This document shows positions 37,491-63,160 of a stretch of DNA of 64,000 nt, piece by piece (the first letter of the stretch is position 1; every line of letters begins with the position of its first letter). The stretch is from assembly GCF_001403795.1 (NCBI RefSeq), contig NZ_CXSU01000012.1, forward strand, positions 1,410,548 through 1,474,547, read 5' to 3'. A program made the translations under genes and the position numbers. The notes below the pieces were generated by a model, which was given only the letters and a program-made list of their open reading frames with translations, did not search any database and had not been told where the DNA came from. The stretch comes from Jannaschia donghaensis (GTDB taxonomy: Bacteria; Pseudomonadota; Alphaproteobacteria; Rhodobacterales; Rhodobacteraceae).

Positions 37491-37928
37491 TCAGGACTCA
37501 TAGCCAGAAAAGCACGGTAGCGGCGAAGGCGATGGCCGAGAGGAACACGGTTGGAGGTCTGTCGTAGCGGGTGGCCACGCGCCTCCAGTCCTTGAGGCGA
37601 CCGAATATGATCTCGATCGTTGCCCGGCAGTGCATCGCGCAGCGATGTCACGAGAGGTGCGATTCCGTTTCCTGTAGCGTCGCTTTTCGTATTTGACGGG
37701 TTTGCCACGTGACTTTCGGCCGGGTGTGCAGGGCGTTATGCCCTTGTCCGCAAGGGCTTCGCGGAACCAATCTGCATCATACCCTCTGTCGCCCAAAAGC
37801 CAGTCTGCTGCTGGTAAACTGCTCACCAGAGCCCTTGCCCCAGTGTAGTCGCTGACCTCTCCGGCGGTCATGAAGAAGCGGATCGGACGTTCAACTGCAT
37901 CCGTGACCGCATGCAGCTTCGTGTTCAT
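37491..37928 (-). pseudogene. IS427-group transposase C-terminal part, cut by hairpin element
   Basis: Carries KLHAVTDAVERPIRFFMTAG and the second catalytic Asp in WLLGDRGYDADW, then KRRYRKRNR, where the frame is broken by the element at 37618-37658. The region with the catalytic Glu (IEIIFGRLKDWRRVATR) follows in a different frame. Confidence 0.8.
37618..37658 (+). repeat. 41-bp hairpin element, copy E1 (site 4)
   Basis: TGCCCGGCAGTG, then arms CATCGC/GCGATG around GCA, then TCACGAGAGG. It splits the transposase codons for Asn-Arg and Ile-Glu-Ile. Copy B of the IS (near 52660) shows the uninterrupted site. Nearly identical to E5, at the same site. Confidence 0.85.
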
Positions 37929-37947
37929 CCCTCGGTTCGTCCGCCCT

Positions 37948-37990
37948 CCCTTTCAGGACATTTGCCGTGCAAATACCCTGCCGGGCAGTG
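37948..37990 (-). repeat. 43-bp hairpin element, copy E2 (site 2, opposite orientation)
   Basis: On the minus strand it reads TGCCCGGCAGGG, arms ATTTGC/GCAAAT around ACG, then TCCTGAAAGG. The arms share no sequence with the other copies but pair fully. It sits at the junction of the two transposase frames; copy C near 63420 shows the empty site. Confidence 0.8.
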
Positions 37991-38062
37991 ATCAAACGAC
38001 CACGCCCCCTTTTTCGACCGCAGACTGGAACCCGTGCGGTGCGCCTTAAGATAGGTGGCGTC

Positions 38063-38103
38063 CACTGCCCGGCAGGGCATCACGCAGTGATGTCCCGAGA
38101 GGG
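38063..38103 (+). repeat. 41-bp hairpin element, copy E3 (site 1)
   Basis: TGCCCGGCAGGG, arms CATCAC/GTGATG around GCA, then TCCCGAGAGG. It splits the transposase between TISI and DATYL. Copy C (near 63491, GCGTCGATGGAG) gives the empty site exactly. Confidence 0.85.
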
Positions 38104-38379
38104 GATGGAGATCGTCCTGTTGTCAGAAGCTTCTGCTGGGAGCCCGTCCATGATCCTGGCAAATGCCCCCATGTCGCTCCACCGCTTCCACCGGTTGTAG
38201 AGGGTCTTGTGTGGGCCGTGCTCCTTGGGCGCATCGCGCAATCTCAAGCCATTGCGATTGATGAAGATAATTCCACCCAGGACACGCTGGTCGTCAACGC
38301 GTGGCACTCCATGGCTCTTCGGAAAGTACGGCCGGAGCCGCGCCACCTGAACGTCGCTCAGCCAACACAAGTCGCTCAT
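38080..38379 (-). pseudogene. IS427-group transposase N-terminal part, cut by hairpin element
   Basis: Starts MSDLCWLSDVQVARLRPYFP, includes RVDDQRVLGGIIFINRNGLR and KTLYNRWKRWSDMGAFARIM, and stops within the inserted element right after DNRTISI. The first catalytic Asp, which should follow as DATYL, is encoded beyond the insertion in another frame. Confidence 0.8.
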
Positions 38380-38452
38380 GTCGTGCCCCGAAGTTTGGGA
38401 GCTTGAATCAGGCAGCCTCAGCAGCCGCAACCAAATCAATGGGTCCTGAGCC

Positions 38453-38638
38453 TAAGCGCTTGGGCCTCTCAAAAATCGGCTATGCAGACTTTGCTACCGT
38501 TTGGGTTAAGACGCCGAACGTCTGCTTTTCCAAGTGGGCGTACTCAAAGGAAAGTTCCGCCAGCCATGGTCCTGCCGTCGTAGACATTACCGTTCTTTGA
38601 TCTTAGTTGTCACCTGCAGAACGAAGTGGGGTTTGGGC
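38453..38638. other. region between IS copy A and the hydrolase gene
   Basis: About 190 bp with no gene. It must hold the promoter of the RsbQ-like/histidine kinase operon, possibly influenced by the nearby IS end. Confidence 0.3.
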
Positions 38639-39439
38639 ATGGATATGGACGTTCGCACACGTCACAACGTCCGCGCGACGGGACGGGGTTTGGATGCGCC
38701 GGCCATCGTGTTCGCGCATGGCTTCGGGTGCGATCAGAACATGTGGCGCTTCGTGGCACCCGCCTTCGAGGATCGCTTCCACGTCGTCCTCTTCGATCAC
38801 ATTGGCGCGGGCGGCTCCGATCTCTCGGCCTACGATCCCGAGCGCCACGCGAGCCTGGGCGGATATGCCGACGATGTCGTCCGGCTGATCGAGGGTCTCG
38901 GCCTGCGCGACGTCGCTTTCGTGGGACATTCCGTATCCGCGATGATCGGCGCGCTTGCCGCGAACCGATCGGAGGGTCTGATCGGCCGGCTGATTATGGT
39001 CGGTCCGAGCCCATGCTACATCGACGATGGAGACTACCGCGGCGGCTTCGCACAAAGCGAGATCGACGAGCTGCTCGAGGTACTCGATGCCAATCACATG
39101 GGCTGGTCCGCCGCGATGGCCCCCACGATCATGGGCAACGCGGACCGCCCCGAGTTGAGCGAGGAGCTGACCAATTCGTTCTGCCGCACCGATCCGGCCA
39201 TCGCCAAGCAGTTCGCGCGCACGACATTCACCTCCGACAACCGGGCCGATCTCGAAGCCGTATCCGTACCCACGCTCGTGCTCCAATGCCGCGACGACGC
39301 GATCGCGAATGAGGAGGTGGGCCGGTTCGTCCACGAGCACATCGCCGGCAGCCAGTTCACGATGCTGGACGCGAGCGGTCATTGCCCGAACCTCTCCGCG
39401 CCCGAGGAGACGACAAAGGCCATCGCCGCCTTTGTCTGA
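38639..39439 (+). CDS. RsbQ-like alpha/beta hydrolase
   Basis: 266 residues starting MDMDVRTRHNVRATGRG; a frame extending to 38534 reads through IS-flank DNA and is rejected. Landmarks of the RsbQ/KAI2/D14 group are FAHGFGCDQNMWRFVAPAFE, FDHIGAGGSDLSAYD, the nucleophile elbow FVGHSVSAMIGALAA, a catalytic Asp in LQCRDDAIA and the His in ASGHCPNLSAPEE. In Bacillus RsbQ makes or senses a small ligand for a PAS-domain partner. Here the partner is the overlapping PAS-histidine kinase gene, so the pair is probably a ligand-sensing module. Confidence 0.87.
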   Translation: MDMDVRTRHNVRATGRGLDAPAIVFAHGFGCDQNMWRFVAPAFEDRFHVVLFDHIGAGGSDLSAYDPERHASLGGYADDVVRLIEGLGLRDVAFVGHSVSAMIGALAANRSEGLIGRLIMVGPSPCYIDDGDYRGGFAQSEIDELLEVLDANHMGWSAAMAPTIMGNADRPELSEELTNSFCRTDPAIAKQFARTTFTSDNRADLEAVSVPTLVLQCRDDAIANEEVGRFVHEHIAGSQFTMLDASGHCPNLSAPEETTKAIAAFV

Positions 39440-41456
39440 GACCGTGGAGCCGGGCCAGGACGCCGAACCAGATCCGGCCGCGTTCTTCGACGACGCGCCC
39501 TGCGGGTTCCTGATCGTCGGGCCAGACTGGTCGATCCGGCGCGCGAACGCCCAACTCGAACAATGGATCGGCACGAGCCGGGGCGAGCTTGCCGGTCGTC
39601 ATCTTCGCGATCTGCTCGACGTCGCCGGCCGCGTCTTTTTCGATACCCACTTCGCGCCGCTCGTGCGTCTTCAGGGTGCGTTCCACGAAGTCGCGCTCAA
39701 CCTGAAGCGCGCCGACGGCTCCCGAATGCCTGCGCTGGTAAATGCCGCCGAACGGACGGGCGCGGACGGCGCGATCGAAGCCATGCTCGTGACCGTGTTC
39801 AACGCCAGTGACCGGCGCCGCTACGAGACCGAGCTTCTGGACGCGCGCAACGCCCTGCGCGAACTGAACGAGGACCTGGAGGACCGTGTACGCAAGGCCG
39901 TCAAGGCGCGTCTGGAAGCGGAGGATACGCTGCGCCAGGCGCAGAAGATGGAAGCGATCGGCAATCTATCGGGCGGCATCGCGCACGACTTCAACAATAT
40001 CCTTCAGATTGTGTCCTCCAACCTGGGGCTCCTCTCCAAGCGCGTTCCGAAGGAAGGCGCGGACTTCCTGGCCAACGCACAGGCCGGCGTCGGGCGCGGC
40101 GCACAACTCGCGCAGCAGCTGCTCGCTATCGGGCGCCGGGGGCCGGTCGAGACGAAGGTCGTCGATGCAGTCGCTGTGATCGAGGGCATGCACGACCTTC
40201 TGGAGCGGACGCTCCGCTCCAGCACACGGACCTCATTCGACATCGCCCCCGGCGTGCTGCCGGTCGAGGTCGACGTCTCGCAGTTCGAGAACGCGGTCCT
40301 GAACTTGTGCATAAACGCCCGCGACGCGATGGAGGGCCTTGCAAATGGCGAGCTGTCCCTCGTCGTCCGGGATTGGCCGGCCGGCGCGACGGCCCTGCCC
40401 AAAGATCTCCACGGGCCGCATGTCGAGATCCGGGTCGTCGATACCGGCGCGGGGATGGACGCAGCGACGCTGGCGAAGGTGTTCGAGCCGTTCTTCACCA
40501 CCAAATCCTCCGGCAAGGGGACCGGGCTGGGGCTTGCGATGGTCTATGGCTTCGCGCGTCAGTCGAGCGGTCAGGTCACGATCCAGAGCGCCGTGGGAGA
40601 GGGCACGGCAATCTCGGTCTGGCTGCCCCGGTCGCCCAAACCGCTGGACGGCGGGACCGTGCCGGAGCCCGTGCCCATCCGAGGGGGCGACGAGACCGTG
40701 CTTCTCGTGGAGGATGACGACGAAGTCCGCGAGGCGACGCGCTCCATTCTGGCCGATTTAGGGTACACGGTCCTTCTTGCGCAGAATGGGGCCGAGGCGC
40801 GGAGGTATCTGCGGGGTTCGGCGACTGTCGATCTGACGATCCTCGACCTCATTCTTCGCGACTCCGAAGATGGCATAGCGCTGATGCAGGAGTTCAAATC
40901 CAAGGCCAACGACGGCGGGCTTTTGCTGACGTCCGGGCAGGCGGACGCATTCGAAGACCGCCTTGATCCTTCGTTCGAGCTTCTGCGCAAGCCCTACGAC
41001 GTCACAGCGCTGGCCGCCGCCATTCGGCGCGCGATCGGCACGGACGGGCGGGCGGCGTCGCAACAGGCCACGCCGCGCGCCGCCGATCTCCCCGTCTTGC
41101 CGACGGGCATGCGGGTGCTGATCGTCGAAGACGAGATCTTGATCCTGATGGCGGCGGTCGATCAGCTGCGCGACCTCGGGCACACCGTCTTCGACGCCAA
41201 CTCGGGAGAGGCCGCCATGGAGGTTCTGCGGACGGCCGACATCGACGTGATGATCACCGATCTGGGATTGCCGGGCCTGGATGGCGGCGCGTTGGCGCGC
41301 GCGGCGCGGCAGTCGAAGCCGTCGATCGGCGTAGTGTTCGCGACGGGCGCTCACGACCTGCCGGACCTGCCAGGCGCCGCCGGCGTGCGCCTGAGCAAGC
41401 CCTACCGGGAAGAGGACTTGGCCAAGGCATTGGAAGCTGCACGACCGGAGCCGTGA
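39432..41456 (+). CDS. PAS hybrid histidine kinase with two receiver domains
   Basis: About 674 residues from a TTG that overlaps the hydrolase stop (a GTG at 39444 is the alternative). Order: PAS (about 15-130, [20 protein letters not shown]), coiled coil, DHp with the phospho-His in [12 protein letters not shown], HATPase with [26 protein letters not shown] and GTGLGLAM, receiver 1 ([13 protein letters not shown], Asp in [10 protein letters not shown]) and receiver 2 ([11 protein letters not shown], Asp in [10 protein letters not shown]). No output domain or separate response regulator is adjacent. The upstream hydrolase probably feeds the PAS domain. Confidence 0.87.
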
Positions 41457-41603
41457 GTGGACCTGCCCCGTCAGCTTAGACCGCCCGGCTCGACTTGGTG
41501 CCTTTCGTTCCGGGGTGCACATCCCAGACGCGTTTCACCATTCGAAATGGGTGCCGCGATATCGTTTGCGTCGCCCCATCGGTCAGATCCCGCTGCGCCG
41601 TAT

Positions 41604-42431
41604 TTACCCAAGTTCGAGGCTTGCCACGGCGTAGAAATCTCGCGGAGACACGGTGACATCGCCGCGATACATGCGGACGGTCTCGAACTCGGGAACCAGG
41701 TTCAAGTCACGGCAGATCGCACCGAGGGCCGGCGCGGAGGCTGGCACATCGATCGTTAATTCGCCCGGCGCGCAGGCGGCGGCATGGGTCAAGAGCGCGC
41801 GCGCCTCGTCGGCATCGGAGGCGACGAGCGGTCCGATCTTGGCACCGCTCCGGCAACGGCGGACGGTGACGAACCCTCCATCCGGCCCGATCCAAGTCGT
41901 CCGGTGCTCCGAAGGTGCCAGCCACGCCATCATGTAGGCGCTCTTCGACCACCCCGATGCATGGGCTTCCCGACCCGTCAAAACCGGCAAATCGGCCGCT
42001 GTCGCTGGAACGGCACCAGTGCAGAGGTGCCCATCGGGCCGGCCGGAATAGCGCACCGTCGCTCCGGCCTCGACGAAGCCCGAGGCGCGGTAGTTTGCCA
42101 GCTGCGCTGGCACCCCGTCGAGTCCCACGATCCGGTCCCCTGCGTGACGTAAAGCATAGCGCCATAGATCATGCGCGATCCCATAGCCCCGTCGGTCGGG
42201 GCGGCAGAGATAGAGGCCGAGAAAAGCGAAACGCTCCGAATGGTTCACCACGGAGATTGCGGCAACTGGCACCTTCTCCTCGACCGCGACGAAGAAGCCG
42301 TCCGGGTCGGCAGTGCGAAAGGGGACGACATCGTCCAGACCGGGATTCCACCCCTCGGCCTCGGCCCAGTCGATAACCGTCTCCAACTCGGCGGGGGTCA
42401 TCACGCGCCGGACGATTGCCCCACCGCTCAT
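41604..42431 (-). CDS. GNAT family N-acetyltransferase with YitH-type C-terminal domain
   Basis: The start at 42431 overlaps the GntR stop (ATGA), giving 275 residues; a longer frame is a shadow. The N-terminal GNAT half has FLGLYLCRPDRRGYGIAHDL, the acetyl-CoA pyrophosphate loop, and QLANYRASGFVEAG. The second half (about 150-275), with GGFVTVRRCRSGAKIGPLVA, resembles the acetyltransferase-like domain of YitH proteins. Substrate unknown. It is cotranscribed with a GntR regulator and divergent from a polyamine-type importer, so an amine substrate is plausible. Confidence 0.82.
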   Translation of the reverse strand: MSGGAIVRRVMTPAELETVIDWAEAEGWNPGLDDVVPFRTADPDGFFVAVEEKVPVAAISVVNHSERFAFLGLYLCRPDRRGYGIAHDLWRYALRHAGDRIVGLDGVPAQLANYRASGFVEAGATVRYSGRPDGHLCTGAVPATAADLPVLTGREAHASGWSKSAYMMAWLAPSEHRTTWIGPDGGFVTVRRCRSGAKIGPLVASDADEARALLTHAAACAPGELTIDVPASAPALGAICRDLNLVPEFETVRMYRGDVTVSPRDFYAVASLELG

Positions 42432-43162
42432 CGTGCCGGGGACGCAGGCGGTGCCGCAAGTGCGTCGCGCAGCGAAACGGGTCCGACCGGCCCCTCGCGC
42501 AGATCCAGAAGCGAGAGCAGGTCGACCAGATGGCCCTTCATCAACTCCTCGGCAGCCGCGCCGTCCTGGCACCGCATCGCATCGACCAGAGCATGGTGGG
42601 CGTGCTTCTCGCACATGGCCGTCTGGCGACGCCAGTAGAGCGCGATCACCAGCGCCGAACGTGCGACGAGCTGCCGGATGAAGGCCTCGATGGTGACCTG
42701 CCCGCTGATGCAGGCAATTTCGACATGGAAATGTCCGGACAGCATCAGGGCCCGCCCTTGTGCCCCGGCGGCGAGTGCGGCGTGCTCGTCCGCGATGTGC
42801 CGTTCCAGGCGGGCCAAATCGGTATGACCACAGCGACCGGCAGCGACCCGGGCCATTGTCGGCTCCAGCAGGGCGCGGGCCTCGAACACCTCGCGTGCCT
42901 CGCGCACAGACGGTTTGGCGACAAAGGCCCCGCGGTTGCGCTCGATGGTAACGAGCCCTTCGTGCGCCAACGCGCGTAGGGCCTGGCGCACGACCGTACG
43001 TCCGGCGCCGTAAATGTCCCCGACCTCATCCTCCGAAAGTTTCATGCCGGGCAAGACGCGGTGTTCATGGATGGCGGCAATCAGGTCGGCTGCGATCGGA
43101 TCTGCGGCGCGCGCTGTGGCGCGATCATCTCCTCCACCCCCTGCGTGCCCGGCATCGTCCAT
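42428..43162 (-). CDS. GntR family (FCD/FadR subgroup) transcriptional regulator
   Basis: The ATG at 43162 follows GAGGAG; an upstream in-frame TTG or ATG at 43180 is less likely. The winged helix (VLPGMKLSEDEVGDIYGAGR, TVVRQALRALAHEGLVTIER) is followed by a helical FCD domain with metal/ligand-type His and Asp spacing (EARALLEPTMARVAAG; HFHVEIACIS; EKHAHHALVDAM). It faces the ABC operon across 230 bp that contain a GTATAC-centred palindrome, and very likely controls it. Confidence 0.9.
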   Translation of the reverse strand: MDDAGHAGGGGDDRATARAADPIAADLIAAIHEHRVLPGMKLSEDEVGDIYGAGRTVVRQALRALAHEGLVTIERNRGAFVAKPSVREAREVFEARALLEPTMARVAAGRCGHTDLARLERHIADEHAALAAGAQGRALMLSGHFHVEIACISGQVTIEAFIRQLVARSALVIALYWRRQTAMCEKHAHHALVDAMRCQDGAAAEELMKGHLVDLLSLLDLREGPVGPVSLRDALAAPPASPAR

Positions 43163-43242
43163 CGCGGCTCTCCTCAGCATCCGCAGTGCCAGACCCCGGC
43201 AAAGCCGACAACCTCCTATTACAATGCCAACAATTCACAAAA

Positions 43243-43256
43243 GATCGTATACAATC
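43243..43256. promoter_or_regulatory. GntR-type operator
   Basis: GATCGTATACAATC is an imperfect palindrome centred on GTATAC, the usual core of FCD-GntR operators (T-GTATAC-A). It lies 80 bp from the GntR start and 140 bp before the ABC operon. Confidence 0.6.
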
Positions 43257-43395
43257 GCTGCCGCCTTTTTCGACAACCGGACGCGACTCTGCATCTTAAT
43301 GTGCCATCCCGCCGATCCCCCAAAGGCGAGGAGCGGGAATCCATCGCAAGCATCGTGCGTCCGGACAAAGCTGGTCCCAGCCACTGGGGGACATC

Positions 43396-44424
43396 ATGCG
43401 ATCCGATCTCGACCTCGAACTCGTGGGCCTGACCAAACGCTACGGTTCCACCACCGCTGTGGATGCCATAACCCATCTCTTTCCTGCCGGCACTTATGCT
43501 TGCCTGCTGGGCCCGTCGGGCTGCGGCAAATCCTCGACCCTTCGGATGATCGCCGGGCACGAGAGCGTCACCGAAGGTGCCGTGGTCCTAGGTGGCCGGG
43601 ACGTCTCGCGGCTACCGCCGGCGCGGCGGGGTACGGCGATGATGTTCCAGAACTACGCGCTGTTCCCGCATCTCAGCGTTGTGGACAACGTCGCCTTCAG
43701 CCTGCGGATGAAGCACGTGGCCACATCCACTCGCCGTGCCCGCGCACTGGAGATGCTGGACCTCGTCGATATGACCCAGCTGGCGGAGCGCCTGCCCGCG
43801 CAACTCTCGGGCGGTCAGCAGCAGCGCGTGGCGCTGGCACGCGCGCTGGTGACGGAACCGCAGGTTCTATTGCTAGACGAACCGCTCTCTGCGCTCGATC
43901 CGTTCCTTCGGGTGCGCATGCGCGGCGAACTCCGACGCCTCCAGCGGGAGCTTGGGATTACGTTCGTGCACGTCACCCACAGTCAGGACGAGGCACTGGC
44001 GCTGGCCGATCAGATCGTTGTCATGAACGACGCCCAAATCGAGCAAGCGGGGGCCGCGCGGGACGTGTTCGACGCCCCCGCCACAGCCTTCGTGGCGCGA
44101 TTTCTGGGGTCGCATAACGTGGTCGCCCTGCCCGACGGGATGGCGGCGATCCGTGTCGATGCGCTGCGGGTCACGGACGCACCGGACGCGCCGCTGCAGG
44201 GCCACGTCACAGGCATCGAATACCAGGGCACCCATGTCGCGCTGACCGCGCAGGTGACCGGCAAGCAGGAGGTCACAGTCCTTCTGACCGACGGGGATTT
44301 CTTCGGCGCGCCGAAGGATGCGGGCGAGGCCATCAGCTTTGTCTGGGAAGCCGCCGCCGCGCATCCGCTGCGCGGCGGCGGCCGGACAAATCAAATGAAA
44401 CCAAACGGGGAATACACGACATGA
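43396..44424 (+). CDS. spermidine/putrescine-type ABC transporter ATP-binding protein
   Basis: 342 residues: Walker A GPSGCGKSSTLRM, Q-loop MFQNYALFPHL, signature LSGGQQQRVALARAL, Walker B LLLDEPLSALDP, His in VTHSQDEALAL, and a C-terminal TOBE domain from about residue 255 (PLQGHVTGIEYQGTHVALTA). It matches PotA-type ATPases for organic cations and amines. First gene of a five-gene operon, overlapping the binding-protein start by four bases. Confidence 0.92.
   Translation: MRSDLDLELVGLTKRYGSTTAVDAITHLFPAGTYACLLGPSGCGKSSTLRMIAGHESVTEGAVVLGGRDVSRLPPARRGTAMMFQNYALFPHLSVVDNVAFSLRMKHVATSTRRARALEMLDLVDMTQLAERLPAQLSGGQQQRVALARALVTEPQVLLLDEPLSALDPFLRVRMRGELRRLQRELGITFVHVTHSQDEALALADQIVVMNDAQIEQAGAARDVFDAPATAFVARFLGSHNVVALPDGMAAIRVDALRVTDAPDAPLQGHVTGIEYQGTHVALTAQVTGKQEVTVLLTDGDFFGAPKDAGEAISFVWEAAAAHPLRGGGRTNQMKPNGEYTT
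44350..44382 (+). other. strong RNA hairpin near the 3' end of the ATPase gene
   Basis: A 12-bp perfect GC-rich stem (44350-44361 with 44371-44382) around CATCCGCTG lies inside the coding end of the ATPase gene, about 40 bp before the binding-protein start. It could slow decay or translation at the junction, separating expression of the two genes. Confidence 0.5.
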
Positions 44425-45695
44425 CCACGATCTCGAAGATCCGCTACTCGCGGCGTTCCATGCTCAAAACCGGGGGTGCTGCGCTCGCCGCCACGGCCCT
44501 GCCCGCGCCCATGATCTGGGGGCAGGAAAGCAAGAATATCGTTCTGCGCCAGTTCGGCACGGGGGTATCGAACCTCAACGACGTCGCCAACAAGGTGAAG
44601 GAGGATCTGGGCTTCACGCTGGAGATGACGGCCCTCGATTCCGACAGCGTAACGCAGCGGGCTGCCACCCAGCCGGGCAGTTTCGACATTGCGGATATCG
44701 AGTACTGGATCTGCAAGAAGGTCTGGCCCACCGGCAACCTTCAGGCAATGGATGTGTCCAGGATCGCCCGCTACGACCAGATCGTCGGCATCTTCAAGGA
44801 CGGCAAGCTGCGCGACGACAGCGTGATCGCCCAGGGCACCGCGCCGCACACCGTGGGCTTCGTCCCCGAACCCGGCGCGACCACCTTCGCCGATGAACCG
44901 ACGAACTGGATGACCCTGATCCCGACCATCTACAATGCCGACACGCTCGGGATTCGCCCCGACCTGATCGGACGTCCCATCCGCAATTGGTCCGAGCTTC
45001 TGAACCCAGAGTTTGCCGGCAAGGCGTCGATCCTCGACATCAGCTCGATCGGGATCATGGACATGGCCATGGTGTGCGAGTCGATGGGCGAGATCCAGTA
45101 TGCCGACAAGGGCAACATGACCCGCGACGAGATCGATCGCACGATCGCGATCTTCACCGAAGCCAAGCGCGCCGGCCAGTTCCGCGCCTTCTGGAAGAGC
45201 TTTGACGAGAGCGTGAACCTGATGGCGTCCGGAGAAGTCGTGATCCAGTCGATGTGGTCGCCCGCCATCACGGCCGTCAAGTCCCGCGGCATCCCATGTG
45301 TCTACCAACCGCTGGAAGAAGGCTATCGCAGCTGGGGCGGCGGGATCGGCCTCTCCAGCGCGCTTTCGGGCATGGAGCTGGACGCGGCCTACGAGTACAT
45401 CAACTGGTATCTCGATGGCTGGGTCGGCGGCTACCTCATGCGCCAAGGCTACTACTCGGCCGTGCCCGCCACCTCCAAGGACCACATGTCCGCCAACGAA
45501 TGGGGCTACTGGTTCGAAGGCAAGGCCGCGACTGGCCCGATCACCTCGCCCGGCGGCGACGTGCTGGCCCAGGCCGGCGATGTTCGCGACGGCGGATCGT
45601 TCGAGGCACGCATGGGCTCGGTCGCCTGCTGGAACGCGGTCATGGACGAGAACCAGTACATGGTCCGCAAGTGGAACGAGTTCATCTCTGCCTGA
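44421..45695 (+). CDS. spermidine/putrescine-type ABC substrate-binding protein, Tat signal
   Basis: 424 residues. The twin-arginine signal SRRSMLKTGGAALAATALPA precedes a PotD/PotF-like bilobed domain (NIVLRQFGTGVSNLNDVANK; FDIADIEYWICKKVW; GRPIRNWSELLNPEFAGKAS). The export route implies folding in the cytoplasm. Ligand likely an amine or other cationic organic compound. A strong stem-loop follows the stop, as expected for a binding-protein gene expressed above its permeases. Confidence 0.9.
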   Translation: MTTISKIRYSRRSMLKTGGAALAATALPAPMIWGQESKNIVLRQFGTGVSNLNDVANKVKEDLGFTLEMTALDSDSVTQRAATQPGSFDIADIEYWICKKVWPTGNLQAMDVSRIARYDQIVGIFKDGKLRDDSVIAQGTAPHTVGFVPEPGATTFADEPTNWMTLIPTIYNADTLGIRPDLIGRPIRNWSELLNPEFAGKASILDISSIGIMDMAMVCESMGEIQYADKGNMTRDEIDRTIAIFTEAKRAGQFRAFWKSFDESVNLMASGEVVIQSMWSPAITAVKSRGIPCVYQPLEEGYRSWGGGIGLSSALSGMELDAAYEYINWYLDGWVGGYLMRQGYYSAVPATSKDHMSANEWGYWFEGKAATGPITSPGGDVLAQAGDVRDGGSFEARMGSVACWNAVMDENQYMVRKWNEFISA

Positions 45696-52408: not shown

Positions 52409-52538
52409 GGGGATCAAGATGGAGTGGCGACCAGAGGTGGCGACTTTTTTCGAAGTATGGACGCTAGATGGCAAGATTATTTGGTGTTCTTCTGCTCGTT
52501 GCGGCTTTCCGTAAGATTATTTTGGAGTGGCAGAGCTA

Positions 52539-53089
52539 GGCTCAAGCCTCATAACCAGAAGAGCACGGTTGCGGAGAGTGCGATGGTCGAGAGGAACACG
52601 GCTGGAGACCTGTCGTAGCGCGTCGCCCCGCGCCTCCAGTCTTTCAGGCGCCCGTACATGATCTCGATCCCGTTGCGTTTTCTATAGCGGCGTTTGTCCA
52701 TCGCCCGGCAGGGCATCACGCAGTGATGTCCCGAGAGGGGATGGAGATCGTCTTGTTGTCGGATGCCCGGGCGGCGAGCCCAGTCATGATCCGCGCAAAC
52801 ACCCCCGTGTCGCTCCACCGCTTCCAGCGGTTGTACAGCGTCTTCTGCGGACCGTACGCCCGTGGTGCATCGCGCCCGCGCAAACCATTGCAGTTGACGA
52901 AGACAATCCCGCTCAGGACGCGCCGGTCATCAACGCGTGGCACCCCAAGGCTGTTGGGAAAATACGGTCGAAGCCGCTCCGTCTGACCTTCGCTCAGCCA
53001 GTACAAATCGCTCATGTCGTGCCCCCGAAGTCCGGGAGATTGAATCAGGCAACCTTGGAAGCCCCAACCAAATCAATGGGTCCTGAGCC
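52539..53089 (-). mobile_element. IS5-family (IS427-group) element, copy B, internally deleted
   Basis: Ends GGCTCAAGCCTCAT and, inverted, GGCTCAGGACCCATTG enclose 551 bp. No target duplication is seen (CTA on one side, GGA on the other). The first third (MSDLYWLSEGQTERLRPYFP to SDNKTISI) and the last part (DKRRYRKRNGIEIMYGRLKD to the end) are present, joined by one hairpin element at 52699-52739. About 330 bp between them, with both catalytic Asp codons, is missing. Confidence 0.82.
52699..52739 (+). repeat. 41-bp hairpin element, copy E4 (recombinant junction)
   Basis: CGCCCGGCAGGG, arms CATCAC/GTGATG around GCA, then TCCCGAGAGG. Its left flank (GCGTTTGTC) is that of site 3 and its right flank (GATGGAGATC) that of site 1, so it marks a deletion between two elements. 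Confidence 0.83.
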
Positions 53090-53096
53090 GGATGAT

Positions 53097-55377: not shown

Positions 55378-55437
55378 GTCGCGCGCCTCCGCCGTTCCAT
55401 TGTCGCCGCATAACCGCCACGCGGGCACCCAAGCGGG

Positions 55438-56544
55438 CTACTCCGTCCGCTCGTTCGTGAGGTCTTCGCAGTCGTAGGGCCGGTAGGCGTCCGTCGTCAG
55501 TACGACCTCGTCCACCCCTTCGATCGGTGCCTCGAGGTAGAGCGGATCGATGAAAGCATAGTCACGGGTCAGCACTGTGCCGTCGTCGCTCAGCGTGAAG
55601 CGTTCGGTGACGGTCAGCTCGGTGCTGTTCTTGACCGGCTGCGGACCGCGGCCACCTTCGGGGCGTTCGGGGTGTTCCGGTCTCTCGGCCGCCTCCGCAC
55701 TGTTCGGCAGGACGCCCGCACGCCCCCCGATGGGTGCCATGATCCAACCTTCATCGAATCCGGTCGTCGTCACGACCAGCGCGTCGCTGTCCCAATTGCC
55801 CACCGAATACCCCGCGCGGCTGGGCTCAATCGCGTCCGGTGTGTCACCGTCCAGGTGAATCGTACGCACCAGATCCATGAACCCATAGGTCAACGTGATC
55901 TCCGTCTCCGTCTGCTCGACGGCGTTCACCATGCCGTTGAACACCCAATCCATGACGATGTTCGTGGGCTGACAGTTGAAGCGCGGGTTTTGCTCCGGGC
56001 TCGCATCCGCGATTGCCGCCTCACCCGCGTCGGTGAGTGTCACACTGGGCCGCCCTCCGCCGCGTTCCCGGGGGTTTGCCACCGCCCAGTTGCCGTCGAT
56101 GTTGGGCGTCCCATCCGCGCGGACGACCTCCCGTTCCGCGACGTCGAGCGTGCCGTCCTCACCGAATGTACTCTCGCGATTGGCCGTCACACCATTGGCG
56201 AACGTTATCTCGTTCATGTGACAAGTCGTCGGATCGTCACGGTCGGGCGAGCCCTCGATGGTAATCTCGCTCCCAATCTCGAACATCTCCTCGGTCCAGC
56301 CGCTGCGCCGTAACAGCGACCCTGACGTCAATTCGCAGCGCATGTTCGTCATGTCGCCGCCCTCGTCGGCGACGTCGAAATAGACGTAGGCGTGGGGATT
56401 CACGAGGCTGATACGCGTGATCGTTCCGGTGACTTCGTAACTTTGGCTCATATCGAACTGACCGCTGACGCCGTGGTGGGCCAGTACGGTGAGTGGAAAG
56501 ACAGATAGGGTCGCGGTCAGCCCAAGGGTTTGCAAACTCGGCAT
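55438..56544 (-). CDS. DUF6152-like secreted protein, first gene of the HupE operon
   Basis: 368 residues with a signal peptide (MPSLQTLGLTATLSVFPLTV, then LAHHG). The N-terminal third has HHGVSGQFDMSQSYEVTGTI, NPHAYVYFDV and CHMNEITFANG, as in DUF6152 periplasmic proteins (AHH start, E..G.....NPH). The rest is a beta-rich region found in related longer proteins, with a short repetitive Glu/Pro/Arg stretch (ERPEHPERPEGGRG). The paired His at the mature N terminus may bind metal. It leads a five-gene minus-strand operon with the HupE-like transporter. Confidence 0.72.
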   Translation of the reverse strand: MPSLQTLGLTATLSVFPLTVLAHHGVSGQFDMSQSYEVTGTITRISLVNPHAYVYFDVADEGGDMTNMRCELTSGSLLRRSGWTEEMFEIGSEITIEGSPDRDDPTTCHMNEITFANGVTANRESTFGEDGTLDVAEREVVRADGTPNIDGNWAVANPRERGGGRPSVTLTDAGEAAIADASPEQNPRFNCQPTNIVMDWVFNGMVNAVEQTETEITLTYGFMDLVRTIHLDGDTPDAIEPSRAGYSVGNWDSDALVVTTTGFDEGWIMAPIGGRAGVLPNSAEAAERPEHPERPEGGRGPQPVKNSTELTVTERFTLSDDGTVLTRDYAFIDPLYLEAPIEGVDEVVLTTDAYRPYDCEDLTNERTE

Positions 56545-57059
56545 GGTTTCAGGTCCTCATCTGGAGTTGGCAGCCGTTTGGCCGCTGCATTCACAGGTAT
56601 TTCACGGATGAGGAGGCGTATTCCGTCGCTGGACAGGCGACGACGGGCGTACATCGCGGGCGGAATATCGCCCCCGTTTGAAGTCACATGCGCTAGTTGG
56701 GCGGGAATTCCATGACGACCTCCCGCCAGAGGAGTTCGTTTGCGCTGACGCCAAAAACGTAGGGTTGTGGCCGCTGAACGTCCCAAAGTTGATCTTGATT
56801 TACGGGCTGCCCATTGCCTGTTGTGCGGACCCTGGCGGCCATTGCCCGCGGGCACCCAAAGGTCTGCGCATCTTCAGAAATGATTTCCACGATTAGTAAG
56901 CCCCTCGCGAAAAAGCAGCTAGAAAAACGGATCAAGTCTCAGAGAGCGAAATGCGCTGATCCATCGACCGGATACAGAGATGAAGCGTCTTCCGATGTCA
57001 TTATGGACCTGCGTAGGTGGTTGTGCTTTTCTTTACCTAACGGCAAGGAAGGACACATA
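56545..57059. other. divergent promoter region, no gene seen
   Basis: About 515 bp between the HupE operon (minus) and the secreted-protein operon (plus). It must hold both promoters. Frames are short and unlike known families. Confidence 0.35.
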
Positions 57060-57938
57060 ATGAGAGGTCTGACGATCGCGACGATGGTCTGCTTGTGGGC
57101 CAGCGCAACCTTGGCCGATTGGCAGCTTGCTCCGCAGGGGGGTTGGATTTCGGACCGCCCGACGGCCCGAGGCTCTGCCGAGAACGACGCCTTCGTTCTA
57201 TCGCTCACCTGTCGCGAAGGCGCTCCATTTCTCTTTACGCTCGGCTACCCGGCGCGGGCCGGGGAAACCCGCGAGGAAGCCTTCGTGGTCGAAGTCGACG
57301 GCCGTAGCTTCGAACCGTTCGGAGAGCATTACCCCCCTGACGGTCTCTGGACGGCGACCCCAAGTGCCGACCTGATCGCGGCGCTGAAGGCGGGCAACGT
57401 CGCCCGGGTGGCACCACCGGATCAGCAGCCCCAGATTATTCGGCTCCGCGGATCATCTCGGGCCATTGAAGGTGCCTTGGCGGATTGCGCGCTGGTGTCG
57501 GCGAGCGATGTGCCCTCCGCGGCCGATCAAGATGCGCCCGGCGAGGTGCCATATGGCACGACCGTTCAGTTCGGCCAGCTGATCGCTTCGACGTGCGGCG
57601 GTGGGTATAGTCTCGCGGTAGGGGCCGAGGAAACCGCCGATCTTGACGGAGACGGGCGGGAGGATGTCGTGCTCGACTGGGCCGGTGTCACGTGCGACGA
57701 CCGTACAAAGGGACGCGGTGCGGGTTTTTGCGGCGCAGCTCTCTGTCGGATCGATGTGCTGCTGACCGGCCCCGGCACGCATCAGCAGATGATGGGTCTC
57801 AAACCTCGGTTCGTCAGGCGGATCTTCGATAAGGTCGCATTGCGAACCACCACGACGGGGGCCACCTGCGGAGGCCCGACACAGATCTGCGAGGTCGACT
57901 GGCGGTTCGATGGCCGGAAGCTGGAGGCAACGCGATGA
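57060..57938 (+). CDS. secreted protein of unknown function with DxDxDG loop
   Basis: 292 residues; GGAAGGA precedes the ATG, and an open frame back to 56814 is not needed. Signal peptide MRGLTIATMVCLWASATLA. The first half (FVLSLTCREGAPFLFTLGYP) resembles alphaproteobacterial secreted beta-sandwich proteins; the second half has ADLDGDGREDVVLDW, a calcium-binding-type loop, and several cysteines (GVTCDDRTK, GFCGAALCRIDV, CGGPTQICEVDW) that may form disulfides. Not recognised. Coupled by ATGA to the next gene. Confidence 0.72.
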   Translation: MRGLTIATMVCLWASATLADWQLAPQGGWISDRPTARGSAENDAFVLSLTCREGAPFLFTLGYPARAGETREEAFVVEVDGRSFEPFGEHYPPDGLWTATPSADLIAALKAGNVARVAPPDQQPQIIRLRGSSRAIEGALADCALVSASDVPSAADQDAPGEVPYGTTVQFGQLIASTCGGGYSLAVGAEETADLDGDGREDVVLDWAGVTCDDRTKGRGAGFCGAALCRIDVLLTGPGTHQQMMGLKPRFVRRIFDKVALRTTTTGATCGGPTQICEVDWRFDGRKLEATR

Positions 57939-59530
57939 GGTCTGCTCTGGTCGCCGTCGCGCTCTGTGTCGCTAGTCCGATTCAGGGGCAGGAACAGGTT
58001 GAGCTTCTGGTCCATGGGGCCATGATCGAGAGTCCGGAGGGGACGCCGTTGGCGACCGCCACATGGGTCGGAGATGTCCCGGAGGCAGGTTTCTTTCTCA
58101 CATCGAATGCGGTGCTGAGCGCAGATGAGCCGTGTTTGCGGTATTGGGCCGACGGCCCCTGCAGCCCACTTAGACCCGGCAGCAAGGCTGCATCGGCACT
58201 TGAGGGGATGGCGTGGATATCGGTCGCGGCGCTTGAAACGGAAAGTCAGGCCAAGTTCGATGCCAATCCGATAACCGCCATGCCCATGGTCGGATCTTTC
58301 GACCCGGCGACCGATCCCCCGGTGGCGGTCTTCGTCACGCAGAACTCCTTCGAGGGGTGGGAGGTGCCGGTCTCGCCCGTACCTATCTCCGGCGGCGCGG
58401 GTGACCTGTTGACGCTCAGGAACCCTGCTCTCAGCGGGTTCACTCTGGGCGCACCGGTCGCCACGGTCGAGAAAGGCCTGATCGGCGTCGTCGTCCGGGC
58501 AGCGGACGGTGCGGCGCAGGTGGCCGGACTCTCCACCGTGGTGGATGCAGCCGTATCGGAAGGCATTCCAGTCTTGAGCACGATGCAGTCCCTGAGTGTT
58601 GAAGACGGGGGCTTGCCCCCGCGTATCGAGAGCGAGATGGGGCGCGTCGTCGTCTTTGCCGACTGGGGAAGCCTCGGCTGGATCGGCGGTTACTACGGCC
58701 CCTCGATGGGAGGTGGCTTTGACGAGACGTTTGTGGCGACGATCGAGTTTTCGACATGGAACATCGCGTCCGACGGTCAGGCGACATTCTATGCCGGGAG
58801 TGACAAAACCCTGCCGCTGATCCCGGCAGGTCAATCGCTTGCGGCGACGCGTGGCGGGCCGACGTCCGATCACATGGCGACCTGCATCGTGCATGCGACG
58901 CCCTCCTCGGCAGGGCGACGCGCGTTGGTTGTGCAGCTCTGGCGTCTGATGCCGCATCTGGGGACGTCGCAGTCTGGGGGAAGACACTTCGAAGACGCAT
59001 CGGTCGTCGTCACAGACTGGGCAGACGGAGACACCGCTTGTGCCGATGCTCTCGGGACCCTGGATGAAGCGCGGCTTGCAGTGTTGTTCGGGCAAGCCCC
59101 TCCTGCCCCGCAAGAGGCTGCCAAGGAGGCCGAGGAGGCGACGGCGATGCAAGTCGAGGCAGTTTCGAAGGTCCTGCCTTCTGAGGGGCAGGGCAACTCC
59201 GCCTCCACGGCGACTTGGCAAGAACTGCCGTTATGGGAGGCGACTGGTCTCGCGGCAGTGCAAATCCCGCTCGGCGAGCGAAGCCTGATCGTCGGATGCA
59301 CGGAAAGCCGTGAGTTGGCCGTGGCACTGATCCTGGCCGAAGGTGAGGTATTATTCACGATCGCTGGCATCCCTGCGCAAGAGAGTGGGATGAACCAAGG
59401 CACGGCCTACGGATTGTTCGCCGCAGGTTCCAAGGATCGACTGATCCGTGGCGCGCTTGAGTGGGATGACGAAGGCGGCCCTCAAAAGATCGCGGGGCCG
59501 CCAGAATCGGCTCTCATCGGTGAGTGTTAG
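57935..59530 (+). CDS. secreted protein, possibly an inactive trypsin-fold protease
   Basis: 531 residues with signal peptide MRSALVAVALCVASPIQGQ. Residues 20-210 recall a trypsin-like fold: a strand pair before GFFLTSNAVLSA, where proteases have TNxHVV, and PALSGFTLGAPVATVEKGLI with GVVVRA, where they have GxSGSPV and GVV. If the alignment holds, the catalytic His is missing. The remaining 300 residues are unassigned and include an Ala/Glu-rich linker (PQEAAKEAEEATAMQVEA). It overlaps the preceding secreted-protein gene by four bases, so the two probably act together outside the membrane. Confidence 0.7.
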   Translation: MRSALVAVALCVASPIQGQEQVELLVHGAMIESPEGTPLATATWVGDVPEAGFFLTSNAVLSADEPCLRYWADGPCSPLRPGSKAASALEGMAWISVAALETESQAKFDANPITAMPMVGSFDPATDPPVAVFVTQNSFEGWEVPVSPVPISGGAGDLLTLRNPALSGFTLGAPVATVEKGLIGVVVRAADGAAQVAGLSTVVDAAVSEGIPVLSTMQSLSVEDGGLPPRIESEMGRVVVFADWGSLGWIGGYYGPSMGGGFDETFVATIEFSTWNIASDGQATFYAGSDKTLPLIPAGQSLAATRGGPTSDHMATCIVHATPSSAGRRALVVQLWRLMPHLGTSQSGGRHFEDASVVVTDWADGDTACADALGTLDEARLAVLFGQAPPAPQEAAKEAEEATAMQVEAVSKVLPSEGQGNSASTATWQELPLWEATGLAAVQIPLGERSLIVGCTESRELAVALILAEGEVLFTIAGIPAQESGMNQGTAYGLFAAGSKDRLIRGALEWDDEGGPQKIAGPPESALIGEC

Positions 59531-60041
59531 GGTACAGAGATTGGTCAGCGGCCCAACGCTTCAGCTCCTGAAAACGTCGCGGATGGCTTGATGTGGGGCG
59601 CTGATGTCTGATCGATTGTAAGTCGCCCGAACTCTTTCTCGGCGTTCTTGTATGGCATGGCGGTGGTGGGGGCGGCATTAAGGGTGCTCCGGGTTCTTGC
59701 GAGCAGGCCCTGTCTGATGACCGACGTGATATCCCCACTTGAATGGACCGTCCTCGACCCGACGCCGACGCTCCGCCCGGGCCACCAGCAGAATATAGCG
59801 ATCACGGAGGTATAACCGGTCGGCTTGCCGTTCCGACCACAGGCGCGTGAAGCTCGACCGCCGAAATGCACCCGTCCCCCGAAGCCGCCGCTCTGGGGCA
59901 CCGCGGCATCGGTGCTTCTGGGCTCGAAACCGACTTCGGAGGTGGCGCAGCATCTTGGCAACCGGACCGGGTTGGGGCTCAACCGGACGGCGCGAAGCAG
60001 AGATGGACGCTGTGATGCGGGAAACTTTGGGCATTAATCCT
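59531..60041. other. intergenic stretch, no confident gene
   Basis: About 500 bp between the secreted-protein gene and the ABC exporter. The exporter frame is open from 59847, but that lead is arginine-rich and unlike the family. No RNA gene seen. Confidence 0.3.
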
Positions 60042-61925
60042 ATGTTCTTCCTCATGAGTTTAGCTGACCGTATCTTTCGCCCGTTCGAGACCCTCGTCCG
60101 CCCTTTCGACCTTCCCGTCAGCCCGATGCCCGGCAGCGGGGTCTGGGCCTTGATCTGGCATTTTGCCCGGCTGTTCCGCGGCGTGCTGATCGCGGTGAGC
60201 GTGCTGTCTGTGATCTCTGCCGGGATCGGATTGACCGTTGTCTGGGCCCTCGCCTTCGTGGTCGACGGCGTGACGACGCAAGGCGCTGCGACGTTCGTGT
60301 CCTCCGAGGCATGGATGCTCGGCGCGTTGATCGTGCTCTTTGCGGTGATCGACCCGCTTGTCACCTTCGTGCGCGGGGCGTTCATGGCGCAGACGGTTCA
60401 GGTGCTGTTGCCGGCCGCGATGCGTTGGCAGTCCCACAAGGCGGTCGAGAGGCAGGACGTCGCGTTTTTCGAAGATGTCTTTGCGGGACAGGTCGCCAGC
60501 CGCATCGGTCAGGTCACCGGTGCCGTCCAGCGGTCGATGATGATCGCGATGCAGATGGTGCCCCGCGTCGTGGTGTCCTTTGGCGGGGCCGCGGCGCTTC
60601 TTGTCGCGCTGTCGCCGATGCTGGCCCTGCCGGTGGTGGTCTGGATCGCCCTGAACGTCGTGCTGGCCTGGTTCGCCGTGCCCGTCTATGCCGCGAGATC
60701 GCGCAAGGTGGCCGCCGCCACCAGCCGGGCGACGGGGGCAATGACGGACGTTTACTCCAACATCGCGATGGTCAAACTTTTCGCCGCCGAAGACAGCGAG
60801 GCCGGGGCCATCCGCAAGGTCATCGGCCAGACCATCGACACCCAGCACCGCGAAAACCGCGCCTATGTATCGACCGACGCTCTGGTGCATCTGCTCAACG
60901 TGTCGCTTGTCGTGTCGATCTTCGCGGTGGGTCTCTGGGGGCTTGTCGTTGGGTTCGTCACACTGGGCGACTTCGTTGCGGCTGCCGCGATCGCGCGCAC
61001 GCTTTCGGCGTCTTCGGGGATGTTCATTGGTTTGGGGCAATCGATCAGTCGTGCGTACGGGACAATCGCCGACGCGATGCCCATCATGACCACGCCGCCC
61101 ACCCTCACGGACGCGCCGGATGCGCCCGACCTGTCGGTGCCCAAGGGGGGCGTCACCTTCGACAACGTCACCTTCGGCTATGGCGACGCCGACCCGGTGG
61201 TCCGCGATCTGTCGCTGGACCTGGCCCCCGGGGAGCGGGTTGCGCTTGTGGGTCTTTCGGGCGCGGGCAAATCGACGCTCGTGTCGTTGCTGATGCGGTT
61301 ACGCGACGTCGACGCCGGGCAGATCGCCGTCGACGGCCAGGACGTGCGCGGCGTGACGCAGGCGTCCCTGCGGCGTCGCATCGGCGTGGTGACGCAGGAC
61401 GTCGATCTGCTGCACCGGTCGATCCGCGACAACATCCGGTACGGTCGCCCGGACGCCACGGATACCGAGGTCGAGGCCGCAGCAGAGGCAGCACAGGCGA
61501 TGGAGTTCATCCGCGATTTACGCGACGACAAGGGACGCCGCGGGCTGGACGCCTACGTCGGCGACCGGGGCGTCAAACTTTCGGGCGGTCAGCGGCAGCG
61601 CGTGACGATCGCGCGCGCCCTTCTGAAGGATGCTCCGATCCTGATTTTGGACGAGGCGACAAGCGCGCTCGACAGCGAAGCCGAGGCCGCGATCCAGGTC
61701 AATCTCGATCGGCTGATGGCGGGCAAGACGACGCTGGCGATCGCCCACCGCCTGTCGACCATCGCGGCAATGGATCGCATTGTGGTGTTGGAAGACGGCC
61801 GGATCGCTGAGGTTGGCACCCACGAAGCACTGCTGGCGATGGGCGGGCTCTACGCCAGGCTCTGGCAGCGGCAATCGGGTGGCTTCCTCGCACGGGATAT
61901 GCCTACTGCCGACGCAGCCGCCTGA
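60042..61925 (+). CDS. ABC exporter, fused membrane and ATPase domains
   Basis: About 627 residues; starts at 60003, 60042 or 60054 cannot be told apart because none has a good ribosome site. A six-helix exporter domain (about 40-350) is followed by an ATPase domain: Walker A GLSGAGKSTLVSL, Q-loop VTQDVDLLHRS, signature LSGGQRQRVTIARAL, Walker B ILILDEATSALD, His in AIAHRLST. It resembles MsbA-like half-exporters; it is not a close copy of the exporter at 9387-11144. Substrate unknown. Confidence 0.92.
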   Translation: MFFLMSLADRIFRPFETLVRPFDLPVSPMPGSGVWALIWHFARLFRGVLIAVSVLSVISAGIGLTVVWALAFVVDGVTTQGAATFVSSEAWMLGALIVLFAVIDPLVTFVRGAFMAQTVQVLLPAAMRWQSHKAVERQDVAFFEDVFAGQVASRIGQVTGAVQRSMMIAMQMVPRVVVSFGGAAALLVALSPMLALPVVVWIALNVVLAWFAVPVYAARSRKVAAATSRATGAMTDVYSNIAMVKLFAAEDSEAGAIRKVIGQTIDTQHRENRAYVSTDALVHLLNVSLVVSIFAVGLWGLVVGFVTLGDFVAAAAIARTLSASSGMFIGLGQSISRAYGTIADAMPIMTTPPTLTDAPDAPDLSVPKGGVTFDNVTFGYGDADPVVRDLSLDLAPGERVALVGLSGAGKSTLVSLLMRLRDVDAGQIAVDGQDVRGVTQASLRRRIGVVTQDVDLLHRSIRDNIRYGRPDATDTEVEAAAEAAQAMEFIRDLRDDKGRRGLDAYVGDRGVKLSGGQRQRVTIARALLKDAPILILDEATSALDSEAEAAIQVNLDRLMAGKTTLAIAHRLSTIAAMDRIVVLEDGRIAEVGTHEALLAMGGLYARLWQRQSGGFLARDMPTADAAA

Positions 61926-62590
61926 TGCCGGTGGGACACAAACCGCCCACCGCAAACGTTCACGGACGGCCACAGCGCTGCGGCGCGGGTTTCCCAAAGC
62001 GATCATTCGCTTGGCACGCAGCACTGTATAGATACGGATGAAAGCTCAACGGGACGAAGTAGCCTTCCGGCTTGTCAGGTCGAAGGTTCACATCCGCTCG
62101 GTACGTTCCTAAGAACCTGGCCTAGCGCATCGCTTAAAACAGACTGAGGAAGGTGTGTAAGAAGACTAGAAAACTCAATATTTTGACAACAGAAAAACCC
62201 TTGGACGGCTCTGCGCAAAAAGGTCACGTCTGACGAGATGTGTAATTTGATCTGTGAACGAGATATCGACCCGTCCACCACAAGTGAGTTCTACTCTCCA
62301 AAGAAATACTAGCTGAGCTCTCGATAGAAGACGCATAACCATGAAAGTCGAAATACGAGCAGCATGGGGATCAGTTATTCTATCCCTCAGCGGCGGCGTA
62401 TGGGCAGTTTTCAGATACGATGAATAAGGCGATCTATGAAATACTGTGACGGTTGTGGTGCCGTCGCACTTTCTGCGCCACCGGAATCAAAGTGGACTAT
62501 ATCGGCGGTCTGACACCCTTTAGTCGCAGGTGGTGTTCTGGGGTCTACGATAGCCGGTTTTACGACATCTATCAAAAGCTTAAAAGATAT
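61926..62590. other. AT-richer gene-free stretch
   Basis: About 665 bp between the ABC exporter and the tRNA remnant. Only very short frames occur, composition is less GC-rich than elsewhere and nothing recognisable is encoded. Together with the tRNA fragment and IS copy C it looks like an integration scar. Confidence 0.35.
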
Positions 62591-62615
62591 TGGCTGGGAT
62601 GGTAGGATTCGAACC
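62591..62615 (-). other. 3' end of a tRNA (possible attachment-site scar)
   Basis: On the minus strand: GGTTCGAATCC, then TACCATCCCAG and CCA, which is a T-loop, T-stem 3' arm, acceptor 3' strand (CATCCCA), discriminator G and CCA. The 5' half with TGGGATG is not found upstream, and the 5' arm of the T-stem matches only partly. The acceptor resembles tRNA-Gln. Such 3' tRNA pieces are left at one end of integrated elements. Confidence 0.65.
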
Positions 62616-63048
62616 CAACCCCACGTTCCTTCTTAAAGCCTTGATAAAGAGCAGCTTAAAGTCTTATCCGAACTCCATGTTTCGCGTTGATTGATATCAC
62701 GTGTGATACTCGGAGCCAGTCGATTCAGCCATTTTGTTGGCGAATGGGTTGTAAAGCGCGACACCCGCCTCCCCTGCGTTTCGTCAAATCGCGCCAGTAG
62801 CGTTGGTTGCGGGAGCTTGCAGCCATCGTCAATTGCCGAAGATTTTCTGCTGACTTCTTACCGATGTGAACGGAGATCCTGACGGCGGCTCAAGGTCAGC
62901 TCTGCGGAACCAGGACTAGGCTCAGGACTCATAGCCAAAAGAGTACGGTAGCGGCGAGGGCGATGGCCGAGAGGAACGCGGTTGGAGGTCTGTCGTAGCG
63001 GGTGGCCACGCGCCTCCAGTCCTTGAGGCGACCGAATATGATCTCGAT

Positions 63049-63089
63049 CGGTGCCCGGCAGTGCATCGCGCAGCGATGTCACGAGAGGT
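63049..63089 (+). repeat. 41-bp hairpin element, copy E5 (site 4)
   Basis: TGCCCGGCAGTG, arms CATCGC/GCGATG around GCA, then TCACGAGAGG. Same transposase position as E1 and one base different from it, so both IS copies descend from an already interrupted ancestor. Confidence 0.85.
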
Positions 63090-63119
63090 GCGATTGCGTT
63101 TCCTGTAGCGTCGCTTGTC

Positions 63120-63160
63120 CGTTGCCCGGCAGGGCAGTGCGCCGCACTGTCACGAGACGG
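63120..63160 (+). repeat. 41-bp hairpin element, copy E6 (site 3)
   Basis: TGCCCGGCAGGG, arms CAGTGC/GCACTG around GCC, then TCACGAGACGG. Arms differ from E1-E5 but pair perfectly. Copy A near 37685 (CTTTTCGTATTTG) shows the empty site. Confidence 0.85.

Follow-up and report, generated by a model that had tools for sequence, protein, structure and literature searches.

Short hairpin elements of about 41 nt interrupt insertion-sequence (IS) genes of Rhodobacteraceae; almost every host is a transposase gene or an IS accessory gene, and the hosts come from about ten families. On the evidence of sequence comparison, we favour, with modest confidence, the view that they are a non-autonomous mobile mini-element of this family, moved in trans in a way that would resemble IS200/REP single-strand transposition. 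A non-autonomous mini-element was among the possibilities raised by the original prediction, and it is the best reading here. That prediction could put no name to the elements, and Rfam and literature searches likewise gave no description of them: the literature search covered both the elements and analogues, and an Rfam scan of window positions 36000-64000 returned 0 matches over the gathering cut-off. The window is the whole 64,000-nucleotide stretch analysed, part of the 3.48-Mb, 13-contig genome of Jannaschia donghaensis.

Six elements in three IS copies of the window

The IS copies and elements of the window are as follows.

37486..38454, minus strand: IS copy A (IS5/IS427-group), with ends TAGGCTC...GAGCCTA, the transposase on the minus strand, three elements and one G missing at the frame overlap
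37618..37658, plus strand: E1, 41 bp, of the T-A lower stem pair type, at the E5 site; net length exact against L045
37948..37990, minus strand: E2, 43 bp, in reverse orientation and with a longer stem; copy C is uninterrupted there, exact
38063..38103, plus strand: E3, 41 bp; copy C is uninterrupted there, exact
52537..53090, minus strand: IS copy B, internally deleted, right end approximate; transposase residues about 94-185 missing
52699..52739, plus strand: E4, a hybrid from deletion between elements at the E6 and E3 sites, by flank comparison; the junction recurs in L045
62917..63843, minus strand: IS copy C (IS5/IS427-group), with two elements; both transposase frames open after excision
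63049..63089, plus strand: E5, 41 bp, at the same site as E1 and with nearly the same sequence
63120..63160, plus strand: E6, 41 bp; uninterrupted in copy A and L134, exact

Boundaries set independently gave coordinates identical to those first proposed for the six segments. The common frame ascribed to them, ending in TCMCGAGA on the 3' side, holds except that E2, on the minus strand, ends TCCTGAAA and E4 starts CGCCCGG. E1 and E5 occupy one site in two IS copies. Five of the six supposed insertions are clean inserts. E4 joins the left flank of the 63120 site to the right flank of the 38063 site, and in copy B the protein match skips from transposase residue 93 to 186; together, these features identify E4 as the scar of a deletion between two elements rather than a simple insertion. 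In copy B, about 90 transposase residues were lost by this recombination. Similar hybrid junctions occur in L043, L045 and L074, and the elements thus double as deletion points.

Excision of the inserts was expected to restore the DDE frame at IS lengths of 840 and 841 bp. The DDE-bearing second frame is indeed open in A and C after excision, with no stop relative to L134, and copy C minus its inserts reads as an IS5 transposase in two overlapping, stop-free frames. The run at the frame overlap is A5G5 in copy A and A5G6 in the others; with one G fewer in copy A, the usual frame relation is kept only in copy C. From inverted repeat to inverted repeat, we obtain 844 (A) and 845 (C) bp, not the lengths proposed. 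The missing G of the A5G6 run is common to copies A and L001, both of which may therefore be impaired independently of their inserts.

A hairpin conserved in structure

The consensus of 29 aligned elements is CCACTGCCCGGCAGGGCATTGCGCAGCAATGTCCCGAGAGGGG. A 5' arm, CRYYGCCCGGCAG, and a 3' arm, YGAGAGGG, enclose a hairpin with a 6-bp upper stem, usually a 3-nt loop, and a conserved unpaired T. Lengths run from about 36 to 47 nt, with a mode of 41. Among 135 distinct matches, 82 are 41 nt and 12 are 43 nt long, the rest being 36-45 apart from one of 50 (the tuf match, discussed below) and one of 72, which was dropped; the second set of matches includes one of 47 nt.

The hairpin is conserved in structure, not in sequence, and is supported by covariation. 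Pairing holds in 97.1% of 347 cells of the alignment, and 7 of the 9 main-helix pairs show double changes. The covariation score is 0.373, whereas shuffles gave 0.120 and slid partners no more than 0.100. Among 166 elements that share one layout, a 6-bp stem plus bulge, the 996 upper-stem pairs include 928 Watson-Crick, 40 G.T and 10 A.C pairs, counts that come from related sequences and are hence not independent; the unpaired base is T in 158 of these elements. GNA loops make up 154 of 223 triloops. Folding as single-stranded DNA gave a modest signal, the four window elements examined lying only 1 to 1.9 sd below shuffles. The elements thus combine a structure-conserved hairpin carrying an unpaired base with strand asymmetry.

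Distribution across genomes

A strict sequence pattern matched 44 of 198 Rhodobacteraceae genomes, 31 of which we judged by eye, from their hairpins, to be true carriers and 13 to be chance; the reversed control gave two matches in the same 198 genomes. Of 385 alphaproteobacterial genomes, 3 matched a stricter pattern; these 3 belong to the 5 Rhodobacteraceae in that set, and 0 of the 380 others matched. Dinoroseobacter shibae, with elements on plasmid pDSHI04, and Phaeobacter are examples of carriers in laboratory culture. J. donghaensis itself gave 7 strict-pattern matches and 0 with the reversed control.

A covariance model (R1), built from 29 sequences, found 12 convincing copies in the J. 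donghaensis genome, all within one IS5 family. This search scored 150 of 3063 first-look candidates. At E below 1e-3 there were 13 matches: these 12 and one near tuf (C12 near 246939; L049:1500-1720), where three successive terminator-like hairpins lie 3' of the gene, each followed by TTTGTCACGA(G/C)AG, which resembles the 3' arm of the element. This weak match looks like a tandem of terminators and was counted as chance. Across 21 chosen genomes, the model gave 1-47 matches per genome at E up to 0.1; genome-wide searches scored only 150 candidates per genome, so copies may be missed. In all, R1 gave 149 matches in 82 loci (first set) and 156 in 90 further loci (second set). We used 148 of the first, without the 72-nt match, and 150 aligned matches of the second; the two sets overlap in genomes.

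A scan of 84,980 species yielded at least 120 matching stretches. Among the 80 matches listed, 77 titles name what we take, from the organism names, to be Rhodobacterales, one names Alphaproteobacteria and two name Enemella evansiae; L149 and L185 were omitted from these 80 as repeats. The Enemella records are JAFKDC010000007.1 and JAFKDC010000020.1 (L185/L188). One of them matches G002:C7, of Rhodobacteraceae, in size (163,622), and the Enemella-titled record is probably mislabelled or contaminated. On some IMG/VR viral contigs (L257, L258, L260 and L262), elements are likewise found within transposase matches or next to them, a possible route of spread.

Nearly all hosts are IS genes of about ten families

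In the first set, 51 of 56 context clusters lie in IS genes, 43 by library match and 8 otherwise assigned: L022 and L075 because annotated relatives show a gap of roughly element size, L048 through its DNA match with copy A, L056:2110 through a PF01548 match slightly below the cut-off, the L057:2842 cluster and L030 because their DNA resembles IS5-type contexts, and L066:2128 and L099:3157 by reading as IstB. The other five are L056:2728, L070, L079 and L096, together with L049, the chance match. In the second set, library matches accounted for 104 of 150 elements; of the 46 left, 34 were placed through Pfam, annotation (L170) or reading. The remaining 12 comprise seven in L142/L183/L184, two in L145/L172, two in L256/L261 and one in L148. 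The library itself contains ORFs taken from ten of these contexts, eight of which were run through Pfam (L071 IstA and L083 rve83 being the other two).

Pfam placed 7 of 8 first-set representatives in transposase or IS families, L082 showing only helix-turn-helix domains, and 10 of 12 second-set representatives in transposase or integrase families, L114 showing only helix-turn-helix domains and L115:7729 no family. Pfam or annotation supports IS3 (rve), IS5, IS6, IS21, IS66, IS91, IS110, IS256, Tn3 and DUF772 transposases as hosts; on our reading, IS30 and IS481 are also among them. Accessory-gene hosts include IstB and IS66 TnpB, and a gene often carries several elements. The hosts thus extend beyond the IS5-family genes seen in the window; in J. 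donghaensis, a single IS5 family is the host of all 12 convincing copies.

One multicopy Sulfitobacter region of about 400 bp (L142:3900-4300, L183, L184) holds two or three elements and has no recognised transposase gene. It is perhaps an IS-derived non-autonomous element.

Insertion is precise and recurs at a short motif

For 82 distinct flank pairs, with one site in different IS copies counted separately, a relative spans the insertion point. The net length equals the element length exactly in 57, confirming the inserts as precise; the residual is -1 in 15, +1 in 5, -2 in 2, +2 in 1 and -10 in 2, so that 25 of 82 deviate by 1 to 10 nt, and in at least 2 of the comparisons (L073 vs L074) the subject carries an element of its own. 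No target duplication was seen at the filled and empty sites compared, as had been expected from the window.

The insertion point follows a motif, YCRTC^G, that is confined almost entirely to the 5' side. In the 207 distinct flank pairs compared, C is present in 57% at -4, A or G in 84% at -3, T in 64% at -2, C in 75% at -1 and G in 68% at +1. The elements thus show insertion 3' of a short motif with no target duplication. A weight matrix made from non-IS5 sites placed some IS5 hot spots high (7, 36 and 101 of 1720) and others poorly (542).

Sites in homologous genes are filled in different genomes with different hairpins, the E3 site, for instance, 11 times with 9 sequences, which indicates repeated insertion. 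The 28 IS5 sites gave 20 mappings, 18 of which fall at four positions within 1-2 nt. Copies A and L001, and copies A and C, share tracts as well, and inheritance and re-insertion therefore both seem to occur. Inserts are enriched between codons (phases 81/49/34, n=164). Tolerance of in-frame inserts was rejected as the cause of this bias, the target motif in six intact genes giving a similar trend.

The motif leaves the restriction to IS DNA unaccounted for: the window has 436 matches to YCRTCG, only 7 of them in IS copies, and all six elements lie in IS DNA.

Candidate enzymes

The elements carry no gene, in line with the prediction that they have no transposase of their own, and we searched 198 genomes for enzymes that could act in trans. 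PF01797 (Y1) was found in 18 genomes (4/31 carriers, 14/167 others; p 0.49), PF00078 (reverse transcriptase) in 53 (12/31 and 41/167; p 0.12) and PF04986 (Y2) in 20 (8/31 and 12/167; p 0.005, one of three tests, uncorrected). None of the three was detected in the J. donghaensis genome. The suggested co-occurrence with a REP-associated tyrosine transposase (RAYT) is accordingly not seen, Y1/RAYT being present in 4 of 31 carriers and absent from J. donghaensis. Reverse transcriptase and Y2 were rejected as partners, being inconsistent across carriers and undetected in J. donghaensis. The Y2 excess may only mark IS-rich genomes, and it stays a lead. At L022:1992-2483, an IS200-type Y1 transposase gene is separated by 0.45 kb from an element that interrupts an IS110 gene; across the 198 genomes, Y1 and the elements showed no general association.

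Comparison with known systems

As outlined in parts of PMC3733652 and PMC8266576, REP sequences are hairpins of 20-40 nt with an unpaired stem position and a 4-nt foot 5' of the hairpin, and are thought to move as a single strand in trans; GTAG-tagged REPs occur with RAYT/TnpAREP, and a CGTC-tagged superfamily occurs without a known transposase. The elements resemble them in being short hairpins with an unpaired stem base and a 4-nt foot, and the CGTC REPs are, in that account, likewise without a dedicated transposase. Unlike REPs, their foot is GCAG within the constant CCCGGCAG arm, and their copies lie inside IS genes. No GTAG or CGTC tag stands at an end of the 29 aligned elements, which have constant CCCGGCAG and GAGAGG arms, and whereas REPs are extragenic and of high copy, the elements are almost all intragenic. 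Membership in the REP/RAYT group, and with it the proposed REP-like palindrome, is thus rejected on tag, enzyme and location.

IS200/IS605 elements insert 3' of a short motif without target duplication, and the elements share both traits. They also share the unpaired T of the hairpin: an excerpt of PMC8266576 describes T17 in the IS608 hairpin, a stem bulge in E. coli REPs, and the choice of cut site by the tetranucleotide at the hairpin foot. They differ in being 41 nt long, gene-less and without an associated Y1 transposase. Like MITEs, the elements are small, non-autonomous and hairpin-forming; they lack the target site duplication of MITEs, have no known partner element and fall below the 70-300 bp given for MITEs in a section of PMC3733652.

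Further parallels concern short inserts in genes. Mitochondrial double-hairpin elements are short structured inserts that interrupt genes. The Rickettsia palindromic elements (RPEs) outlined in PMC3733652 are also palindromic and inside alphaproteobacterial genes; RPEs lie in frame in functional genes, whereas the present elements are mostly frame-breaking and in IS genes. Yeast mitochondrial byps and phage T4 gene 60, as treated in part of PMC5009743, are likewise short structured gene inserts; those are translationally bypassed, whereas our elements have mixed orientation and drifting host genes. The internal eliminated sequences of Paramecium, for which a passage of PMC3464196 gives a minimum of 26 bp, are similarly tiny, intragenic and precisely bounded but, unlike the elements, TA-bounded and excised in development.

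Alternative explanations

The elements might insert anywhere with the motif, only copies in dispensable, multicopy, horizontally spread IS genes surviving. Bacterial group II introns, which reside largely in mobile elements, offer a parallel, and stops occur in 98 of 164 element-bearing host matches against 4 of 18 element-free nearby transposase matches, although IS3/IS5 frameshifts and library entries in the wrong frame inflate both numbers. We nonetheless consider such purging unlikely. Intergenic and other dispensable DNA exceeds IS DNA yet is almost without copies, the J. donghaensis copies are 12 of 12 in one IS family, and IS DNA holds just 7 of the 436 window motif matches.

Targeted silencing, in which a system of the host or of a plasmid would put hairpins into IS genes, the element being its scar or payload, would account for the near-exclusive residence in about ten IS families, including accessory genes such as IstB and IS66 TnpB, and for the same 12 of 12 convincing copies. 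By illustrative odds, five independent window insertions would all fall in IS DNA (3.8% of the window) at about 8e-8. Each near-full-length close IS copy found in J. donghaensis (A, C, L001 and L043) carries two or three elements; an element-free relative, 67-83% identical and at about C11 580935-581690, weakens this point but is already decayed, with several stops. We regard silencing as distinctly unlikely, since no machinery was found and a few copies lie outside recognised IS genes. One insert would do, yet there are four to six matches in about 1 kb of L060 (two of them weak), and an IS with four inserts still reached six copies in genome G013. A specific form, in which a Rhodobacteraceae enzyme would recognise an IS of any family as mobile DNA and insert a ~41-nt hairpin at YCRTC^G as a heritable mark, appears more doubtful still. 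Near-exclusive IS residence in marine Rhodobacteraceae suggests instead a mini-element preying on insertion sequences, with transposon silencing the less likely interpretation.

Alternatively, the insert could be eliminated at the DNA or RNA level, or ribosomes could pass over it, leaving the interrupted IS functional. Excision opens both frames of copy C, and the tract shared by A and C around E1 has 5 silent vs 4 replacement changes (p 0.04 against neutral). The IS3-type element of G013 has four inserts, two per orientation, and after excision aligns over 308/308 residues ungapped with an annotated relative; its six copies are 98.5-100% identical, with no close uninterrupted copy among the matches. 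Such a multicopy interrupted IS3 could reflect insert removal or mobilisation in trans. Those six copies drift, however, with 5 replacement and 2 silent changes in orfB and the orfA start codon lost in one. Replacement changes outnumber silent ones 18 to 10 in the A-L001 tract with E2 and E3 (p 0.11 against neutral), A and L001 share their missing G, and lengths are inexact in the 25 of 82 comparisons noted above. Orientation relative to the host gene is mixed, 114 opposite and 87 same (not deduplicated), with both orientations found even inside one gene; this disfavours RNA splicing and translational bypass, and with them the proposed RNA-level device. For bypass, take-off and landing codons also mismatch, by eye, at one L091 site. 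Intron-like removal is thus not supported, and we think it very improbable that the interrupted genes stay functional.

That the segment belonged to the IS from the start and was deleted from the uninterrupted forms, a possibility that would have overturned the prediction and is favoured only by there being multiple carriers, is as good as excluded by uninterrupted relatives for about 80 flank pairs, the presence of the element in several transposase families and the existence of annotated intact homologs.

A proposed mini-element of insertion sequences

For the favoured non-autonomous mini-element, the written strand (CRYYGCCCGGCAG-hairpin-YGAGAGGG) would fold as single-stranded DNA, and a candidate enzyme would cut and join it in trans, by a chemistry like that of the IS200/IS605 and REP (HUH) transposases. 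An insert that breaks the transposase frame would silence that IS copy, and the IS would then carry the elements along through transposition, through recombination of one copy with another and through horizontal transfer. Restriction to IS DNA may arise if insertion is coupled to something that marks such DNA, for example transposition intermediates. We know of no targeting rule that explains the choice of about ten IS families.

If mobile, these ~41-nt elements would rank among the smallest mobile DNA elements in bacteria. If their insertion is truly IS-directed, they would represent a new means of either parasitising transposons or defending against them. The elements also give many broken transposase genes of Rhodobacteraceae a recognisable cause.
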